Assembly: GCA_030840805.1 (NCBI GenBank)
Contig: JAVEDU010000078.1
Span: 1-35,269 of the forward strand
Length of the DNA stretch: 35,269 nucleotides
Direction: 5' to 3'
Origin: Actinomycetota bacterium
GTDB taxonomy: Bacteria > Actinomycetota > Actinomycetes > Mycobacteriales > HKI-0501
The first letter of the stretch is position 1. Every line of letters begins with the position of its first letter. Under the pieces are notes generated by a model that saw only the letters and a program-made list of their open reading frames with translations, did not search any database and had not been told where the DNA came from. The position numbers were made by a program, and so were the translations under genes. This document shows, piece by piece, positions 6,742 to 15,003 of this stretch.

Positions 6742-7833
6742 TCAGGCGGCCGAGGTGCTGCCGTCGAAGCGCACCGGGTCGACCTCGTACCCGAAGTAGC
6801 GCGGCCCGACCAGCTCGATGCCCGCGGGGCTGTGCCAGCGCTCGTCGCAGGGCGCGGACACGACGCTCACCCGGTGCCCGTACCGCAGCGCCTCGGTGGT
6901 GACCGGCTCGCCGGTGTCGGTGTCGAGCACGACGATGAGGTCCGGCGAGGTGACCAGGAGCTGCCCGTCGAGCTCCGCGAGCAGGTGCTCGTTCTGGAAG
7001 TGCAGCACCATCCGGCTGCCCTTCTGATCGCCGAGCCCCTCGACGATCGCCTCGCCGCGGGCGAACCCGGTAGCGGTACGCCGCGCCACGTCGAGGACCT
7101 TGCCGGTGTGCAGCACCCGGCCGCCGAGGCGGTCCGCCACCGCGCGCACCGGGTCGTGGTGCTCCGCGCGCGCCCGCTCGATCGTCCGGCCGAGGTCGAG
7201 GCAGAGGCTGAGCGTGCCGGGCACGAAGTTGTCCCGCACCTGCGCGCCGGTCATCGCGTACAACGAGACGATCGTCGCGCAGCCCATGTCGATGGTGGCC
7301 GACCGGGCGAGCCGCTCCGCCCAGTGGTTGTCGATCGTGTCGAGGACGCCCTTGTTGCCCTTCTCGTCCACGATGGACATCGGCGTGGCCTGGATGCCGC
7401 CGAGGGTGGGCAGCACCATCTGGAGCTCGGGGAAGGCCCGCCCCATCGCGTCGCCGTCGATGAGCGGCAGCCCGAGCCGCGCCGCCGCGACGAACGGCAC
7501 GGTGGAGTTGACTCCGCCGGCCTCCATGCACGCGACGTGCGTCGGCGTGCGTCCGAGGTACCGGGCGAGCGTCTCCAGGGCCGTCGCGATCTGGTCCACG
7601 GACGGGATCTTCTCCACCATCACGGTCGGCGCGCCCATCATCGCGATGGGCAGGACGCAGGCGTCCGCCGGCACGCTCTCCACCGGCACCACGTCGACCT
7701 CACCGTGCTGCGCCAGCGCGCGCTCGGCCAGCAGTCGCCCGATGTGCGGGTCGCCGCCGCCACCGCCGCCGAGGACCGCCGCGCCACGCGCGAGCGGGAC
7801 GAGGTCGGCCTGGGTCACTCGCATCGCACTCAC
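6742..7833 (-). CDS. DUF917 (S-methyl-thiohydantoin desulfurase-like) family protein, copy 2
   Basis: DUF917 family protein, 363 aa, with canonical motifs: VLGGGGGGDPHIG near the N-terminus, then MMGAPTVMVEK, CMEAGGVNSTVP and DGDAMGRAFPELQM. The start is the GTG at 7833, which overlaps the hydantoinase stop (GTGA) and has GGAG upstream; an ATG at 7824 is less well placed. Position directly behind a HyuA-type gene is the classic family context, and (from memory) some eukaryotic and bacterial proteins fuse the two domains. Likely a cytosolic enzyme acting on the same heterocycle as the hydantoinase. The exact reaction is not established by sequence. Confidence 0.9.
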   Translation of the reverse strand: MSAMRVTQADLVPLARGAAVLGGGGGGDPHIGRLLAERALAQHGEVDVVPVESVPADACVLPIAMMGAPTVMVEKIPSVDQIATALETLARYLGRTPTHVACMEAGGVNSTVPFVAAARLGLPLIDGDAMGRAFPELQMVLPTLGGIQATPMSIVDEKGNKGVLDTIDNHWAERLARSATIDMGCATIVSLYAMTGAQVRDNFVPGTLSLCLDLGRTIERARAEHHDPVRAVADRLGGRVLHTGKVLDVARRTATGFARGEAIVEGLGDQKGSRMVLHFQNEHLLAELDGQLLVTSPDLIVVLDTDTGEPVTTEALRYGHRVSVVSAPCDERWHSPAGIELVGPRYFGYEVDPVRFDGSTSAA

Positions 7834-9386
7834 TGCTGCTCCATCCGAAGGTCCCCGACCGCCTTGCAGCGGATCCGGGTGGCATTGCCGGGAAGGTAGG
7901 GGATCGGCACCTCGTCGAAGTCCGCGACCGCGACCGTCGACGGGTCCGCGCCGGCGGCGACGGCCCGGTCGACCGCCTCCTGCCGGGCCTCGTCGACCAC
8001 TGTGTCCCGGGCGCCGGGGGCGATCGAATAGATCCGGTCCACGACACCGCCGACCTGGGCGATCGCCGCGCCGATGGCGTTGGCCACCGCGAAGTGCTCC
8101 GGCCGGTGCACGGTGCCGCAGCCGGGCAGCTCGTCCGGCAGCAGGATCGACCCGCCGCCGACCGCCACCACGGGGAGAGGCTCGCTGGAGGTGCGCATCC
8201 GCTCGACCGCGTCGGCGACATCGGCGCCGATCCGCTCCAGCGCGGCCGCGACGAACGCGGGGTCGAGATCGGCGACCCGGGAGCGGTCGCCGATGTCGGC
8301 CCGGCCGGAGGCCACCGCCACGTCGGTGGCGGTCAGCGTGTCGCCGCCGAAGACGCGGGCCAGCTCGGTCAGCCGGTACCCGACGGAGTCCGGGCCGACC
8401 GTGACGCCGCCGGCGGTGGCCCGGACCAGGCTGCCGCCGCCGATGCCGATGCTCAGCACGTCCGGCATCCGGAAGTTGGTCCGGATGCCGGCGACCGTGA
8501 CCTCGGTGGTGGCCTCGCGGGGGAAGCCGTTGGTCAGCACGCCCACGTCGCTGGTGGTGCCGCCGACGTCGACCACCGCGCAGGTCTGGAACCCGGAGAG
8601 GATCGCCGCTCCGCGCATCGAGTTGGTCGGGCCGGAGGCGAACGTCGACACCGGGTACCGGCGGGCGTAGTCGACGTCCATCAGCGTGCCGTCGTTCTGG
8701 CTCAGGTACAGCGGGGCGGCGATGCCGTGCCCGGCGACCGAGTCGGCCAGGCCGTCCACGATCGTGGTCGCGAGCTCGCGCAGCGCCGCGTTGATGATCG
8801 TCGCGTTCTCCCGCTCGAGCAGCCCGATCCGGCCGATCTCGTGCGACAGCGAGATCGCCACGTCCGGGCCCAGCTCCTCGGTGAGGATCTCCGCGGCCCG
8901 CAGCTCGAACTCGGCGTTGACCGGCGAGAAGACCGAGGAGATGGCGACCGTGCGTACCCCGTGGGCGATCATGTCGCCGGCGTGCCGGCGCAGCTCGTCC
9001 TCGTCCAGCTCGGTGATGTGCCGTCCGTCGAACTCGTGGCCGCCGTGCGCAAGGTACGCGCGGCCGGCGATCGCGTCCACCAGCCGCGACGGCCAGTCCA
9101 CCATCGGCGGCAGCGAGCTCGTGGCCGGCAGCCCGAGGCGCAGCGCGGCCGTCGGCGCGAGCCGCCGGGCCTCGATGAGGGCGTTGACGAAGTGGGTGGT
9201 GCCGATCATCACCGCGCCGACCCCGGCAGGGTCGAACGGGCGCTGCGCCTGCAGGCTGTCCAGGGCCGTGACGATCCCGGACGTGACGTCCTGGGTCGTG
9301 GCGGCCTTGGCCCCGGCCAGCACGGTGGTGCCGTCCACGAGGACTGCGTCGGTGTTCGTGCCACCGACGTCGATACCGATACGCAT
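7830..9386 (-). CDS. Hydantoinase/oxoprolinase family protein (HyuA-type)
   Basis: ATP-dependent hydantoinase/oxoprolinase A subunit, 518 aa. The N-terminus IDVGGTNTDAVL is the Hydant_A_N phosphate-binding motif. GTTHFVNALIEA, VVDVGGTTSDVGVL and VAVGGGSILLPDEL follow, the signature of the actin-like ATPase fold. The ATG at 9386 begins the conserved domain directly and has GGAG upstream. Family members open hydantoin, 5-oxoproline or N-methylhydantoin rings using ATP. No HyuB-type partner is present in the window; the DUF917 gene is coupled to it instead. The 112 bp gap after the racemase gene holds no recognisable element. The substrate is unassigned. Confidence 0.93.
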   Translation of the reverse strand: MRIGIDVGGTNTDAVLVDGTTVLAGAKAATTQDVTSGIVTALDSLQAQRPFDPAGVGAVMIGTTHFVNALIEARRLAPTAALRLGLPATSSLPPMVDWPSRLVDAIAGRAYLAHGGHEFDGRHITELDEDELRRHAGDMIAHGVRTVAISSVFSPVNAEFELRAAEILTEELGPDVAISLSHEIGRIGLLERENATIINAALRELATTIVDGLADSVAGHGIAAPLYLSQNDGTLMDVDYARRYPVSTFASGPTNSMRGAAILSGFQTCAVVDVGGTTSDVGVLTNGFPREATTEVTVAGIRTNFRMPDVLSIGIGGGSLVRATAGGVTVGPDSVGYRLTELARVFGGDTLTATDVAVASGRADIGDRSRVADLDPAFVAAALERIGADVADAVERMRTSSEPLPVVAVGGGSILLPDELPGCGTVHRPEHFAVANAIGAAIAQVGGVVDRIYSIAPGARDTVVDEARQEAVDRAVAAGADPSTVAVADFDEVPIPYLPGNATRIRCKAVGDLRMEQQ

Positions 9387-9498
9387 GCTGCGCGATCTCC
9401 GATTCGTGGGGTCAGACGGGGGGCGCCGCGCCGGGGCGGGCGCACGGCCCGGGTGGCGCACCGATCGGCACGCCGCCCGAGGGCCGATGGGCACGGGC

Positions 9499-10218
9499 TC
9501 AGATGTTGCGTTCCTTGGCCGGCGGCGGCATGTAGGTGGCCCGGCTCGGCCGCACGCCGAGGCGCACCTGCGACTGGAGCCAGAGCAGCGCGGCTCCGGT
9601 CGGGTCGACGACCGGGACGTACACGTCGTCCGCCTCGAGCCGGCGCTGGAGCTCGGCCGCGACGCCGATCATGCCGGTGCAGCCGAGAACGATGACGTCG
9701 GCCTCGCCGGCGTCCACGGCGGCGCGGGCCTCCCGGTGCAGCCGGGTGAGCAGCTCGTCCGGCTCCTCCAGGGACAGCACGGGGATGTCGACCACCCGCA
9801 CCGACCGGCACCGGTCCGTGAGGCCGTATCGGCGGGTCAGGCTGCGGATCATCGGAACGACGTTCTGCAGCACGGTGACGATGCCGACGTGCTCGCCGAG
9901 GGAGAGCGCGGTGAGCATGGCCGGCTCGAAGCCTCCGACCACGGGGATGTCGACGATCTCGCGGGCCGCGTGCACGGCCGGGTCACCGAAGCAGGTGATG
10001 AAGACGCCGTCCGCGCCGTTCTCGGCGGCGAGCTTGACCTGCTCGAGGATGCCGGGGCCGGCCAGGGCCTCGTCGTACTCGGACTCGATGGACGCGGTGC
10101 CGCGGGTGATCCGCACGACGTCGATCTCCACCCCGGGGCCGGCCCAGGCGGCGACCTCCTTGCGGACGTTCTCCGCGAAGTCCTCGCCGATGAGCGGGCT
10201 GACGACCGTGAGCTTCAT
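9499..10218 (-). CDS. Aspartate/glutamate/hydantoin racemase family protein
   Basis: Cofactor-independent racemase of the Asp/Glu/hydantoin superfamily, 239 aa. The catalytic cysteine pair is visible: Cys76 in VFITCFGDP and Cys180 in VIVLGCTGMIG, each at the end of a beta strand in a two-lobed fold. The ATG at 10218 is chosen because GGAGG lies 6 bases upstream; a TTG at 10224 is in frame. It opens the leftward operon with hydantoinase and DUF917 and would interconvert enantiomers of a 5-substituted hydantoin or related acid so both can be degraded. A maleate-isomerase-like activity is an alternative within the same superfamily. Confidence 0.9.
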   Translation of the reverse strand: MKLTVVSPLIGEDFAENVRKEVAAWAGPGVEIDVVRITRGTASIESEYDEALAGPGILEQVKLAAENGADGVFITCFGDPAVHAAREIVDIPVVGGFEPAMLTALSLGEHVGIVTVLQNVVPMIRSLTRRYGLTDRCRSVRVVDIPVLSLEEPDELLTRLHREARAAVDAGEADVIVLGCTGMIGVAAELQRRLEADDVYVPVVDPTGAALLWLQSQVRLGVRPSRATYMPPPAKERNI

Positions 10219-10484
10219 GTGCAACCTCCAGTGACGGACCTGTGGTCATCTTGCGTCACGGAGGTCGAGCGACGAAGGTGCCGATTGCCCTGGATCGCCT
10301 TCCGTGAGTGCGACTTGCACAGGCTGGCCCGCCCTCGGCACAGGCAGCAGGCCCAGCCAGCGGACCTCCCGGGGCAGCCGCTCGAATGTCACACCGCTCC
10401 GGCCGTCCCACGCGCGCCAGCCACATCGCGGCCGGACGACGTGCCGAGCCCGCCGGCGGAGGCGTTCCGGCGGTGGTTCCCGGG

Positions 10485-12218
10485 CTACCGCGGGCGGCTC
10501 CCCGGCTGACCCAGCGGTCCCGTCGCCGGGGTGAGCCGCCCGCCGGACAGCCAGCCCGTGCCGCCGTGGTCGTGCCCTGCCGCCGCCGGGAGGAACGACA
10601 CCTGGGCGGCCGCGTACAGCAGGGTCGGGCCGTCCGGTGGCCCGTGCCGGACGGCCCGCCACGCGCGGTATCCCGCCGCGGACGGTGCCTCGCCGGGGAA
10701 CGCGCCGGCGAGGGCGGCGACGTACTGCTGGGCCGGGAGGCCGTACGGGTCGAAGCCGAGCGCCACGACCGCTCCCGAGCTGTATTCGAGCAGGCGGCCG
10801 GCGGCGAGCCAGGGCGCGAGGTACACGCCGCCGGGCGGCACCGTCCCCGCGAGCAGGCGCCGCAGCGCCGCGTCGGCGCCGTCCCAGCCCGCCACGACGA
10901 CGTCGGCGCCGCCGGTCCCGGGCCGGAGGCCGTGCGCGGCCGCGGCGGCCCGGACGACGCCGGCGGCGGCCCGCGAGCGCGGCGACGCGTCGGCGGTGAC
11001 CCGCAGCGCCCGGATGCCGCGGCCCGCAAGGAACGCCACCGTCCGGCGCAGCGCGGCGGCGTCGCCCGCCGCGAGCCGGTCGGCGGGGCACGACGTCACC
11101 GGCGCGCTGCTCCCGGCCAGCAGCGCGCCCAGCGCGGCGCTCGCACACTCCGGCCCGTCCGGCCCGGTGAGGGACGGCCCGGGCGTGCCACCGGTGTCGA
11201 CGCGCACCGCGGCGCGTACACCGGGGTGGCCGACCCAGAGCCGGGAGCGGCCGGGCGGCAGCGTGACGACCGCCCAGCCGCCGTGGGTCCCGGCGCGAGC
11301 CCCCGCCGGTACGGACCCGGTGGGGGACAGTCCCACCGTGAGGGTGTGCATCGCGTGCACCCCCACGTGGACGAGGTTCGACCCGGGGCGCTGCGGGAAG
11401 ACCGCGACCGGCACCGTCTCGTCCCCCAGCCGTACCGTGCGGAGCAGTGGCACCCCCGTCGCCGGGGGCGGCGGCGGGAGCGGCAGGCCCGCGAGCGCGG
11501 AGCCGGCCGCGGTCGCCGCGGCGAGGACGGCCAGACCCAGCCGGCTCGCGGCGCGCGGGCGGCGGCGCCGCCACACCGCGGCGCCCGCGGCGGCCGCGAG
11601 CACGAGCAGCGACGCCTTCCCGAGCACGACACGGCCGAACCCGGACCCGGTGCTGGCGGCGTCCGGTCGCAGCCCGTCCAGCCACACCGCGGCGAGACCG
11701 GTGACGAGGACCGTCACCACCGCACCGACGGCCGCGGGCGCGAGCCGCCGCAGGGTCCCGCCGCGCCTGCCACGGCCGGCGGACGCGACCAGCACCGCGG
11801 CCCCGAGCCACACCACCGCCGCGGCCGTGTGCGCCACGGCGACGAGCCGCCCCGCGGTCCCCGTGCCGGCCGTCGTCTGGCACGCGAGCACGGCGGTCAG
11901 TACCGCGCCGCAGACGACGGCGAGCCTGTCCCGCGCCGGGCCGAGCGCGGCGCCCACCACCAGCAGGCCCTGCAGGGCGGCGAGCGTGGGGGTCGTGCCG
12001 CGGACGGGCACGGCCAGCAGCGTGCCCGCGCAGGCGGCCGCCGCGGCTCCGAGCACCGCCCGGTCGAGGCCGGGCCGCGGTGGCCCGGCCGGCGACCGGA
12101 GCAGCGGCCGGAGCAGTGCCGCTCCCGCCACCGCCCCACTCGCCGACACGACGACGGCCCGGAGCGCCGCGGGACCCCACGCGCCGACGGTGCCGGCCAG
12201 GTCGGCGAACCCGGACAC
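10485..12218 (-). CDS. CopD-like multi-pass membrane protein with extracytoplasmic domain
   Basis: Membrane protein, 577 aa. The first 250 residues contain about eight hydrophobic segments, including VAHTAAAVVWLGAAV, which matches the CopD copper-transport consensus. The rest is a soluble domain with alternating beta/alpha pattern (ADVVVAGWDGADAALRRLL, GVYLAPWLAAGRLLEYSS) reminiscent of a type I periplasmic binding protein, ending in a tail with HDHGG. The start is the GTG at 12218, 7 bp after the SBP56-like stop, so the two form one operon. The copper role rests on the CopD half only; the function of the C-terminal domain is unknown to me. Confidence 0.75.
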   Translation of the reverse strand: MSGFADLAGTVGAWGPAALRAVVVSASGAVAGAALLRPLLRSPAGPPRPGLDRAVLGAAAAACAGTLLAVPVRGTTPTLAALQGLLVVGAALGPARDRLAVVCGAVLTAVLACQTTAGTGTAGRLVAVAHTAAAVVWLGAAVLVASAGRGRRGGTLRRLAPAAVGAVVTVLVTGLAAVWLDGLRPDAASTGSGFGRVVLGKASLLVLAAAAGAAVWRRRRPRAASRLGLAVLAAATAAGSALAGLPLPPPPPATGVPLLRTVRLGDETVPVAVFPQRPGSNLVHVGVHAMHTLTVGLSPTGSVPAGARAGTHGGWAVVTLPPGRSRLWVGHPGVRAAVRVDTGGTPGPSLTGPDGPECASAALGALLAGSSAPVTSCPADRLAAGDAAALRRTVAFLAGRGIRALRVTADASPRSRAAAGVVRAAAAAHGLRPGTGGADVVVAGWDGADAALRRLLAGTVPPGGVYLAPWLAAGRLLEYSSGAVVALGFDPYGLPAQQYVAALAGAFPGEAPSAAGYRAWRAVRHGPPDGPTLLYAAAQVSFLPAAAGHDHGGTGWLSGGRLTPATGPLGQPGSRPR

Positions 12219-12225
12219 GATCCCG

Positions 12226-14046
12226 CTACCGAATGTCCGCGTCGGCGACGACGAACAGTTGCGAGTGCGGCTTCGCCGGACCCGCGGCCCCGTGCGGCCA
12301 CACCGTCCGGTCGAAGTCGACGCACGGCGTGCCCTTCTGCTCGTCGCGGAACGTCGGGTCGAGCGTCAGCGCCCCGCCCCGTCCCACGTCCACCACGCAG
12401 ACGCGGTGGTCGCCGTCGAGCCCCGTCCGCGCGACGAAGTAGTCGGCGTACGACAGGCGCCGCACGTCCGTGGTCTCGTGGAAGTACCCGTCGGCGCCAC
12501 GCGCGAAGTTGTCGAGCGTGCCCCAGTGCGGCCCGCCGCTCGTCGTGTCGTGCACCGGCAGCACGCTCGCGACCGCCGGGCAGTCCGCCTCGTTCCCGCC
12601 GCCGTAGATCTCGTCGGCGGTGTCGATCGAGCAGGCGGGCGTGGACCCGGAGGCGAGCAGCTTCCGGATGTCCAGCGCGTACACCATCTTCGGGGACCCG
12701 GGGTCGGCCGGACCCGTCACGCCCGGCTTGCGGCCGATGACCGCGTGGTACAGGTACCGGTCGTCCAGGCTCGTCTGCACCCAGCCGCCGCCGTCGCAGC
12801 CCGCGAGCTCGGTGCCGGTGGGGTCCAGCCGCCGGGCCGCGGTCGAGTCGTCGAAGACCTCGCGCCACCGCGGGTGCGCCGCGGTGAGGTCGGGCGTGTA
12901 GTAGATCGCGCCGCCGCACATCGTCGCGGCGAACGCGCCCCGGTGCCGCGGCAGGTTGGTCACGGTGGTCTCCATGACGGCCTGCGGTTCCTCGTGCGCC
13001 GGGTTCGCCTCGACCCGGGGGCCGTCCGGCAGCGTGGCCACCGACGTCAGCCGGGGAGTGTTCCGGTGGGTGATGTCCCAGATCCGGACGGTGTTGCGGG
13101 TGACGTACGGGCTGGGCGGCTTCACCGGGTCGAGGATGATGTCGCGCGGCTCGGCGTAGTCGCTGGTGACCATCCGGTCCAGGTCCTCGCGCACCTGGAT
13201 GCCGTGCGGGTTCGCGCACGTCGGCACCCCGACCGCCGGGATCGAGACGCACTTCACCGGGTCCTCCGCGGTGGCCTGCGCGGCGGGCACCTGGGACAGC
13301 ACCGTCCCGGTCGGTCCGAGCCGGACGACCTCGCCCGGGGTGCCCCCGTACCCGTTGCCGAGCCGGACCTGCCCGTCGGAGTACGTGCACGCACCGGGGA
13401 GGACGGGGCCGCCCATGTACGTGCCGTACGCCGTGCCGTCGCGCAGCACCCAGAACGCGTCGGGGATCGAGCCGCACGCCGTGTCGGTGGGCAGCGTGAC
13501 GCCGGACAGCCGGAGCAGCGGCAGCGCGGACGTGTCGAGGACGTACGTGAAGCTGGAGAAGAGCCCGCCCGCGTAGATGCGGTCACCGCGGTGCCAGAGG
13601 TACTGCATGTGGTGCGGTTCGTTCTCCGGTACCGGGCCGAGCGTCACGGTGTTCACCACGCGGCCGTACGTGGGGGAGCCGCGGTCCGCGTCGATCACCG
13701 CGAAGAAGTCCTGGCCCGGCAGGACCGCGGCGGGCTCGGGCAACGGCAGCGGTGCCGCGAGCGCGTCGCCGGTGGTGTCGGCGGCGTTCCGATCGCCCGC
13801 CCACACGACGAGGTACTCCTTGCGGGCGTGCCCGGCCGTGCCCGCGGACCGGGCGCCGGGCGTGTCGACGAGGTGGTTCGTCGCCGTGAACACCGTCCCG
13901 GCGGTGCTGTGCACGGCCGACGTCACGACGGCGACTAGTTCGACGGGGCTCGCGGCGGTGGCCGGGCCGGCGGAGCCCGGCACCACGGCGAGGACGAGCG
14001 CGACCAGGCCGGCGAGTGCGCCGGCGGGGCGCGGGGACACCGACAT
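12226..14046 (-). CDS. Secreted SBP56/methanethiol-oxidase-like beta-propeller protein
   Basis: 606 aa with a Sec-type signal peptide (hydrophobic residues 10-25, likely cut near ATAAS). The body resembles the SBP56/SELENBP1 family: EPHHMQYLWHRGDRIYAGGL (His145, His146), NPHGIQV (His281), SDYAEP, SLDDRYLYHAV, and a C-terminus with GALTLDPTF and GPAKPHSQLFV (His594) that parallels GGLKLNPNF and GPALAHELRY of the animal protein. The family's CSSC motif is absent. Bacterial members are Cu-dependent methanethiol oxidases (established for Hyphomicrobium), which fits the downstream CopD-like gene. Identification is from motif order, so a divergent non-enzymatic propeller is possible. Confidence 0.72.
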   Translation of the reverse strand: MSVSPRPAGALAGLVALVLAVVPGSAGPATAASPVELVAVVTSAVHSTAGTVFTATNHLVDTPGARSAGTAGHARKEYLVVWAGDRNAADTTGDALAAPLPLPEPAAVLPGQDFFAVIDADRGSPTYGRVVNTVTLGPVPENEPHHMQYLWHRGDRIYAGGLFSSFTYVLDTSALPLLRLSGVTLPTDTACGSIPDAFWVLRDGTAYGTYMGGPVLPGACTYSDGQVRLGNGYGGTPGEVVRLGPTGTVLSQVPAAQATAEDPVKCVSIPAVGVPTCANPHGIQVREDLDRMVTSDYAEPRDIILDPVKPPSPYVTRNTVRIWDITHRNTPRLTSVATLPDGPRVEANPAHEEPQAVMETTVTNLPRHRGAFAATMCGGAIYYTPDLTAAHPRWREVFDDSTAARRLDPTGTELAGCDGGGWVQTSLDDRYLYHAVIGRKPGVTGPADPGSPKMVYALDIRKLLASGSTPACSIDTADEIYGGGNEADCPAVASVLPVHDTTSGGPHWGTLDNFARGADGYFHETTDVRRLSYADYFVARTGLDGDHRVCVVDVGRGGALTLDPTFRDEQKGTPCVDFDRTVWPHGAAGPAKPHSQLFVVADADIR

Positions 14047-14740: not shown

Positions 14741-14745
14741 TTCGG

Positions 14746-14817
14746 TGGGCGATACTGGGATTGAACCAGTGACCTCTTCCGTGTCAAGGAAGCGCTCTCC
14801 CACTGAGCTAATCGCCC
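14746..14817 (-). tRNA. tRNA-Val (GAC anticodon)
   Basis: Cloverleaf of 72 nt: acceptor GGGCGAT paired with ATCGCCC plus discriminator A, D arm TAGCTCAGTGGGAGAG, anticodon stem CTTCC/GGAAG with loop TTGACAC (anticodon GAC), T arm with GGTTCAATCC. CCA is not encoded. Last gene of the leftward tRNA operon, 15 bp after tRNA-Cys. Confidence 0.96.
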
Positions 14818-14832
14818 TGGCTGTGGGTTCCG

Positions 14833-14903
14833 AGGTGGAGACGGGATTTGAACCCGTGTAGACGGCTTTGCAGGCCGTTGCCTCGCCTCTCGGCCACTCC
14901 ACC
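14833..14903 (-). tRNA. tRNA-Cys (GCA anticodon)
   Basis: Cloverleaf of 71 nt: acceptor GGTGGAG/CTCCACC, anticodon stem ACGGC/GCCGT with loop CTGCAAA (anticodon GCA), T arm with GGTTCAAATCC, and U73 as discriminator, an identity element of tRNA-Cys. CCA is not encoded. Middle gene of the operon. Confidence 0.96.
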
Positions 14904-14930
14904 GGAGTGAGGCCCGGAAAGACCTCTCCG

Positions 14931-15003
14931 AGCGGACGACCGGGTTCGAACCGGCGACCTCAACCTTGGCAAGGTTGCGCTCTACCAACTGAGCTACGTC
15001 CGC
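14931..15003 (-). tRNA. tRNA-Gly (GCC anticodon)
   Basis: Cloverleaf of 73 nt: acceptor GCGGACG/CGTCCGC, D arm TAGCTCAGTTGGTAGAG, anticodon stem CAACC/GGTTG with loop TTGCCAA (anticodon GCC), T arm GGTTCGAACC, discriminator U. CCA is not encoded. First gene of the operon, about 33 bases downstream of the -10 box. Confidence 0.96.

Follow-up and report, generated by a model that had tools for sequence, protein, structure and literature searches.

The window, a stretch of 35,269 nucleotides from an Actinomycetota bacterium (contig JAVEDU010000078.1 of assembly GCA_030840805.1), encodes an exported beta-propeller protein and, directly behind it, a membrane partner that recur together in related genomes. 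We consider this pair best explained as an extracytoplasmic sulfur-acquisition unit formed by an exported copper-dependent propeller oxidase and its partner, an explanation to which we give about an even chance. Its gene neighbours suggest the role in sulfur acquisition, and profile-profile comparison and predicted fold indicate that the propeller is a distant relative of SBP56. All window coordinates given here are on the minus strand. The propeller coding sequence (12226..14046; 606 aa, ATG start) is followed after 7 bp by that of the partner (10485..12218; 577 aa, GTG start), confirming the two open reading frames (ORFs) and the spacing of the initial annotation. The propeller N-terminus (approximately residues 1-34; 13945..14046) looks like a Sec signal peptide when judged by eye, and the predicted local distance difference test (pLDDT) of the model is below 50 in this segment.

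The genome collection contained 184 relatives of the propeller. Identity to it ranged from 52 to 68% across the 80 listed loci and from 48 to 50% across six Streptomyces plasmids. Within the order, 25 of 298 genomes, that of the window among them, carried the propeller, as did 5 of 246 genomes of the Streptomyces-like genus sampled, from which loci L148-L151 were drawn. In 80 of 83 loci the partner gene comes after the propeller gene; the conservation of the propeller and this pairing go beyond chance. The partner is split across two ORFs in L037 and is partial at a contig end in L046, and the contig of L039 ends 90 bp downstream of the propeller. Streptomyces lavendulae plasmid matches H2 and H3 and the G868 locus were left out of the locus comparison. 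The three annotated plasmid records that we inspected list both genes as 'hypothetical protein'. Alignment A1 comprised 11 of the 26 loci L003-L028, three plasmid loci and the window, and the propeller alignment A2 comprised 38 of the 80 listed loci and the window.

Against the Pfam family SBP56 (PF05694) the window propeller scored 17.2 bits, under the gathering cut-off of 34, and the five propeller-family proteins scored reached 17-24 bits. The MtoX model of NCBIfam (NF052453, cut-off 650) gave 21.3 bits, and no other family outscored SBP56 and MtoX. At E 0.01 the SBP56 profile matched 38 of the 39 members of A2, with a best E of 1.3e-5. Comparison by hhalign of the propeller family with 13 true actinobacterial SBP56 proteins (A4; 13 of the 20 SBP56 loci L112-L131) returned a probability of 92.6 and an E of 4.5e-7 over 352 columns, with little diversity in either profile. 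The new-family profile also picked up the HH region of true SBP56 genes in G314, G365 and G492. Searches of the PDB with the single window proteins yielded nothing useful, and a profile search with the propeller placed the SBP56 structure 2ECE second (E 0.091), after an unrelated proteinase (E 0.081).

An AlphaFold model of the propeller, built from 39 sequences (pLDDT 82.4; predicted template modelling score, pTM, 0.86), has an inferred seven blades. Its top Foldseek match was 2ECE at E 5.8e-16, with the runner-up at 3.1e-10. By a second structural aligner (VIA), 2ECE aligned at Z 29.1 with a root mean square deviation (rmsd) of 3.1 over 378 residues and 20% identity. Many propellers aligned at similar Z and two exceeded 2ECE, 1l0q at 31.1 and 7bid at 29.9, so Z alone is not decisive. 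These scores would suit a different propeller enzyme, lactonase-like or unknown, whose conserved site is structural. We regard this as improbable, since the Foldseek E-value of 2ECE is more than five orders of magnitude better than that of any other match, 2ECE has both the largest aligned length and the highest identity among 50 VIA rows, and the site residues align by sequence. The SBP56 label of the initial annotation thus stands as a distant relation, but not at the curated cut-offs, and we would class the family as a variant of the SBP56 kind, outside SBP56 itself.

The putative metal site is strongly conserved. Eight residues (H145, H146, D196, H281, E359, W422, H507 and H594) are invariant in all 91 core rows, which include at least one genome twice (L153 and L035). 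All eight are retained by the deep relatives L140 and L141, whilst the third deep relative, L142, retains H145, H146, H507 and H594 only. All three MAFFT modes agreed in aligning His145-His146 (13609..13614) with the HH pair of a true SBP56, Glu359 (12970..12972) with its Glu253, His507 (12526..12528) with its Gln370 and His594 (12265..12267) with its C-terminal His439. We take Glu253 to be human E252 and His439 to be MtoX His412. His281 (13204..13206) aligned adjacent to SBP56 Asp189, and the SBP56 register of Asp196 (13459..13461) is uncertain. A register drawn by eye, pairing D196 with SBP56 His139, was rejected because none of the three MAFFT modes reproduced it.

In the portions of the two papers available to us, the proposed copper ligands of Hyphomicrobium MtoX are H89, H90, H140 and H412 (PMC5739008), and activity of human SELENBP1 requires H73, H74, H137, H140, D189 and E252 (PMC10362175). 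These residues were mapped onto the SBP56 alignment by motif and not by aligning the MtoX or human sequences; on this mapping three of the four MtoX ligand histidines have counterparts in the propeller (H145, H146 and H594), and the HH pair and E359 answer to H73, H74 and E252 of the human protein. H281 or H507 could, from the alignment, substitute for the fourth. The histidine set of the initial annotation (H145, H146, H281 and H594) therefore holds for the three counterparts, H281 being extra with respect to MtoX. In the model, D196, H281, E359, W422, H507 and H594 occupy the second or third position of six strands. We take these to be the innermost strands of successive blades, which would place the residues around one pore mouth; clustering of the site histidines was judged from strand positions alone.

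The HH pair and the C-terminal histidine are kept and CSSC is missing, as first described: the CSSC/CSAx stretch that follows HH in the canonical SBP56 proteins compared is absent from the propeller. The window propeller has ten cysteines, forming five pairs that are jointly present or absent in all 91 core rows. The mature parts invariably carry an even cysteine count (2, 4, 8 or 10). Because pairs 191-220 and 550-575 also come close to varying together, the exact pairing should be read as a suggestion only. The propeller thus probably has no free cysteine. For Rhodobacteraceae SBP56-type enzymes, the accessible text of PMC10936201 proposes a cysteine-persulfide reaction in which cysteines are thought to carry sulfur. 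Given the even, co-occurring cysteines, such a reaction is unlikely in the propeller.

The sulfur gene neighbourhood of the pair had been overlooked in the initial annotation. Of the 83 loci, 45 have a gene for a YeeE/YedE-type transporter (PF04143) next to the pair; these 45 span 11 named genera, and in two of them, L076 and L089, the transporter is encoded on the opposite strand. The one such neighbour tested against PF04143 scored 211 bits. Across the order, 21 of the 25 propeller genomes had a PF04143 match, in 13 of them within 3 kb of the propeller (six on the opposite strand) and in the remaining eight at another place in the genome. PF04143 was over the cut-off in 17 genomes of a 121-genome sample, assumed in the following comparison to be G000-G120. 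Strong matches (E <1e-40) occurred in 8 of 11 propeller genomes against 5 of 110 others (Fisher p 2e-7, kinship uncorrected), or 9 of 110 if the excluded genomes with fragmentary matches over the cut-off (G037, G083, G097 and G116) are counted.

Other sulfur genes accompany the pair. In five of seven Streptomyces loci (L029, L148-L151) a nitrite/sulfite reductase gene, so named in the annotation of L029, lies directly downstream of the partner with cysD, cysN and cysH nearby. Near the pair, 11 of 83 loci encode a protein whose rhodanese domain scores over the cut-off and whose metallo-beta-lactamase match is sub-threshold; 10 of 83 encode a SufS-like aminotransferase there. Matches to cysN in seven Amycolatopsis loci were discounted, as most of these loci carry rpsL/fusA/EF-Tu-like genes by eye; EF-Tu is a relative of CysN.

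The three transporters tested all fell far under the NCBIfam cut-offs for TsuA and YedE/FdhT. That of L054 scored 130.9 bits for YedE/FdhT (cut-off 350) and 76.6 for TsuA (cut-off 400). Its higher score for YedE/FdhT, albeit far below the cut-off, and the binding of selenium by human SELENBP1, noted in the available part of PMC10362175, would fit selenium handling with the transporter as a YedE-type selenium protein. We did not adopt this as the main reading because, of the 28 genomes that carry the propeller or a deep relative, only 16, including that of the window, had selD over the cut-off. Together with the sulfate-assimilation genes of the five Streptomyces loci, this makes selenium handling very unlikely.

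The partner was predicted to combine three parts (pLDDT 89.6, pTM 0.82): eight long helices forming a CopD-like membrane region (residues 3-244; 11487..12212), a beta-sandwich (residues 258-341; 11196..11447) and an alpha/beta lobe of the type I periplasmic-binding-protein kind (residues 350-566; 10521..11171). In Pfam it matched CopD (PF05425) at 25.2 bits over residues 155-232, below the cut-off of 32.1, and gave no match to CopC. For the helices, the structural matches were cytochrome bd and bundles like it (Z up to 17.4), a common arrangement. Foldseek of the partner was weak (best E 5.7e-3), and the sole match of its PDB profile search was an unrelated chain at E 0.91. The lobe aligned with type I periplasmic binding proteins at a best Z of 15.8 (rmsd 2.8, 196 residues); across the matches, residues from about 350 (247 in some rows) to 566-577 aligned at Z 12.8-15.8 over 193-220 residues.

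Conservation of the partner was followed in alignment A3 (39 of the 80 listed loci and the window), from which the three Streptomyces plasmid loci were omitted, as were the Pseudonocardia and Actinomycetospora partners, whose N-termini are long or uncertain. Across these 40 partners the C-terminal region is the conserved part. The initial annotation had called the partner CopD-type; the predicted eight-helix bundle agrees with this, but the CopD score is sub-threshold and what is conserved is the beta-sandwich and binding-protein lobe. DUF6239 matched 5 of 40 partners and Peripla_BP_6 matched 2 of 40; a literature search found no paper on DUF6239. Cys358 and Cys377 of the lobe are kept in 39 of 40 partners, and His130, within an HxxAxxxWxG stretch (HTAAAVVWLG in the window), in 7 of 40 including the window. 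Comparison of the partners also revealed a Met/His-rich C-terminal loop (10551..10607; GHDHGG in the window) with at least two Met or His in 38 of 39 partners (mean 17% against 2.2% elsewhere), L033 ending before the loop. This composition fits copper handling.

Copper genes accompany two of the three deep relatives of the propeller, L140 and L142. A single ORF beside the L140 propeller scores 51.3 bits for CopC (cut-off 23.3), 31.3 for CopD (just below the cut-off of 32.1) and 52.3 for Peripla_BP_6 (cut-off 31.7). The binding-protein relation of the partner is firmer through this fusion, whose Peripla_BP_6 match is over the cut-off. The same lobe raises the possibility, which we hold to be rather unlikely, that the propeller is a non-catalytic binding or relay protein for a sulfur compound (thiosulfate, sulfane sulfur or a copper-thiol) that the partner lobe passes on or senses. 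The transporters beside 45 of 83 loci and the want of a free cysteine for a cysteine-based reaction would also suit such a relay. It is disfavoured by the retention of the HH pair, Glu and C-terminal His of an oxidase family, and a classical ligand cleft is doubtful because only 196 residues of the lobe could be aligned to chains that are about 360 long.

In L142, a gene for a PpoB2/PF09948 copper chaperone (173 bits) lies just upstream of the deep propeller relative. A Cys-rich protein that is weakly Csp1-like (below cut-off) is encoded at L142:5682-6128 (-), adjoining the PF09948 gene and the propeller relative. A copper-homeostasis unit, acting in uptake, storage or loading of other cuproenzymes with the sulfur neighbours secondary, would draw on the CopC-CopD fusion, PpoB2 and the Csp1-like protein, on the Met/His-rich loops of the partners and on the precedent of YcnJ, a CopC-CopD-YtkA protein of Bacillus subtilis in the accessible part of PMC13344008. 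The pair persists, however, where the helices are lost, and transporter and cys neighbours occur in several lineages; we therefore judge copper homeostasis unlikely as the primary role. Delivery of copper by CopD is itself not general, because Nocardioides partners lack the helices and three Streptomyces partners retain only about two. The dedicated copper delivery proposed at the outset thus finds support in the context of the two deep relatives but not across the family.

Homology, fold, invariant residues, pairing and neighbours were computed, whilst copper loading, catalysis, substrate, docking and import are what we infer. In the sulfur-acquisition unit, the exported propeller would bind copper at one pore mouth via His145, His146, His507 and His594, with D196, H281 and E359 close to the site. 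It may act by oxidising methanethiol, another thiol or some other small sulfur compound. The beta-sandwich and binding-protein lobe of the partner would hold the propeller at the membrane, and in lineages that keep the CopD-like helices, that of the window included, helices and Met/His-rich segments could handle the copper. Released sulfur would then be imported by the YeeE/YedE-type transporter where present and assimilated.

Several results weigh against this sulfur-acquisition explanation. At the level of families, the window propeller lies below the Pfam and NCBIfam cut-offs and is thus formally outside SBP56 and MtoX; as all scores are sub-threshold, the labels SBP56, MtoX and CopD do not formally apply to the window proteins. 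The deep relatives L140 and L141 had no Pfam match at all. At the site, a His is missing at the position of the fourth MtoX copper ligand in all three MAFFT modes, and D196, H281, E359 and W422 are missing from L142. CopD matched just 5 of 40 partners of A3 at E 0.01 and eight Nocardioides rows have no helical region; the three Streptomyces plasmid partners show two hydrophobic segments only. No partner was found in L105. Four of the 25 propeller genomes of the order have no PF04143 match, among them the window's own, and PF04143 is near the pair in none of 19 Amycolatopsis loci. The host of the window would therefore use another uptake route, or the product (e.g. sulfide) may cross the membrane itself. 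Among the Streptomyces loci, L030 has cysD only and L031 no cys gene, and the L148 reductase scores highest for nitrite-reductase families, all below cut-off, so that a sulfite role for the reductase rests on the cys context. Co-occurrence figures are also overstated, because the genomes are related to one another.

A scan for promoters and terminators around the pair found none. Just upstream of the propeller, on the same strand, is a cluster of tRNA-Gly, tRNA-Cys and tRNA-Val (14744-15003). Genes resembling Asp/Glu racemase, hydantoinase/oxoprolinase and S-Me-THD lie downstream of the pair (6742-10224), also on the same strand. These three had no match at E 1e-20 in the 93 loci compared and were excluded as parts of the unit because no match lies beside the pair in relatives. 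Elsewhere in the window's genome, near a contig end, L001 (G000:C70:59589-59711) holds a fragment like a canonical SBP56 gene, with a SRPHTVHC stretch and an internal stop codon, which looks like a decayed copy.

Two small proteins are encoded downstream of the unit in relatives. A secreted-looking protein of about 77 aa (VDEPDTS..N.WTFAPLGVPVFGL) occurs at L110:13856-14089 and in 24 other loci, in Saccharopolyspora and at least one Amycolatopsis. The other protein, of 164 aa and with a single hydrophobic segment, follows the partner at L080:10049-10543 and in 14 other loci, the six printed being Amycolatopsis. For each protein, the one copy tested had no Pfam match. The Streptomyces plasmid copies L029-L031 lie near AfsR/SARP regulators and apparent biosynthetic genes (a VlmB-like protein and an iron-containing redox enzyme), raising the possibility that the unit also moves together with a natural-product cluster. 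A literature search found no paper combining a selenium-binding protein with Streptomyces, a gene cluster and sulfate adenylyltransferase.

Somewhat more tentatively, we propose that this is a novel system, in which a copper-dependent oxidase of the SBP56 superfamily, without free cysteine, is held and loaded by a membrane CopD/binding-protein fusion and is coupled in many lineages to a YeeE/YedE-type importer or sulfate-assimilation genes for extracytoplasmic sulfur scavenging in actinobacteria. If this is true, actinobacteria own a copper route to sulfur compounds outside the membrane, and an SBP56-type site works without the cysteines thought, in the consulted part of PMC10936201, to carry sulfur in Rhodobacteraceae enzymes. 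CopD fusions would also serve enzymes beyond the respiratory oxidases studied in B. subtilis, as far as the sections seen of PMC13344008 describe them. The proposal gives two unannotated protein families a testable function. A literature search combining SBP56 with actinobacteria and CopD found no paper.

The propeller shares with SBP56 and MtoX its fold and the aligned HH pair, Glu and C-terminal His, and a signal peptide has also been reported for Hyphomicrobium MtoX, in the part of PMC5739008 at hand. It differs in the absence of CSSC, HH followed by CSSC-type cysteines being common but not universal in SBP56, and of a His counterpart to the PHTVHC motif. It differs also in its additional invariant H281 and H507 and its co-occurring cysteine pairs. 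As proposed in the initial annotation, the context is unlike that of mtoX: a CopD/binding-protein partner takes the place of the SCO1 and MauG partners, and neither SCO1/SenC nor MauG was seen among the ten neighbour clusters scanned, most of the neighbours being unannotated. The PF04143 neighbour in 45 of 83 loci recalls TsuA and SoxT, the YeeE/YedE thiosulfate or sulfur transporters; unlike TsuA and YedE/FdhT, the transporters tested lie far below the NCBIfam cut-offs, and the window's genome has no match. The partner lobe has the fold of type I periplasmic binding proteins (LivJ/AmiC-like), but it amounts to about one lobe, fused to a membrane bundle, with two conserved cysteines and a Met/His-rich loop. 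From YcnJ the partner differs in the beta-sandwich and binding-protein lobe of its C-terminal region, in having no CopC match and in the absence of its helices in Nocardioides. Like YcnJ and other CopC-CopD proteins, it joins a CopD-like helix bundle to an extracytoplasmic C-terminal region, and the single ORF adjacent to L140 unites CopC, CopD and Peripla_BP_6.

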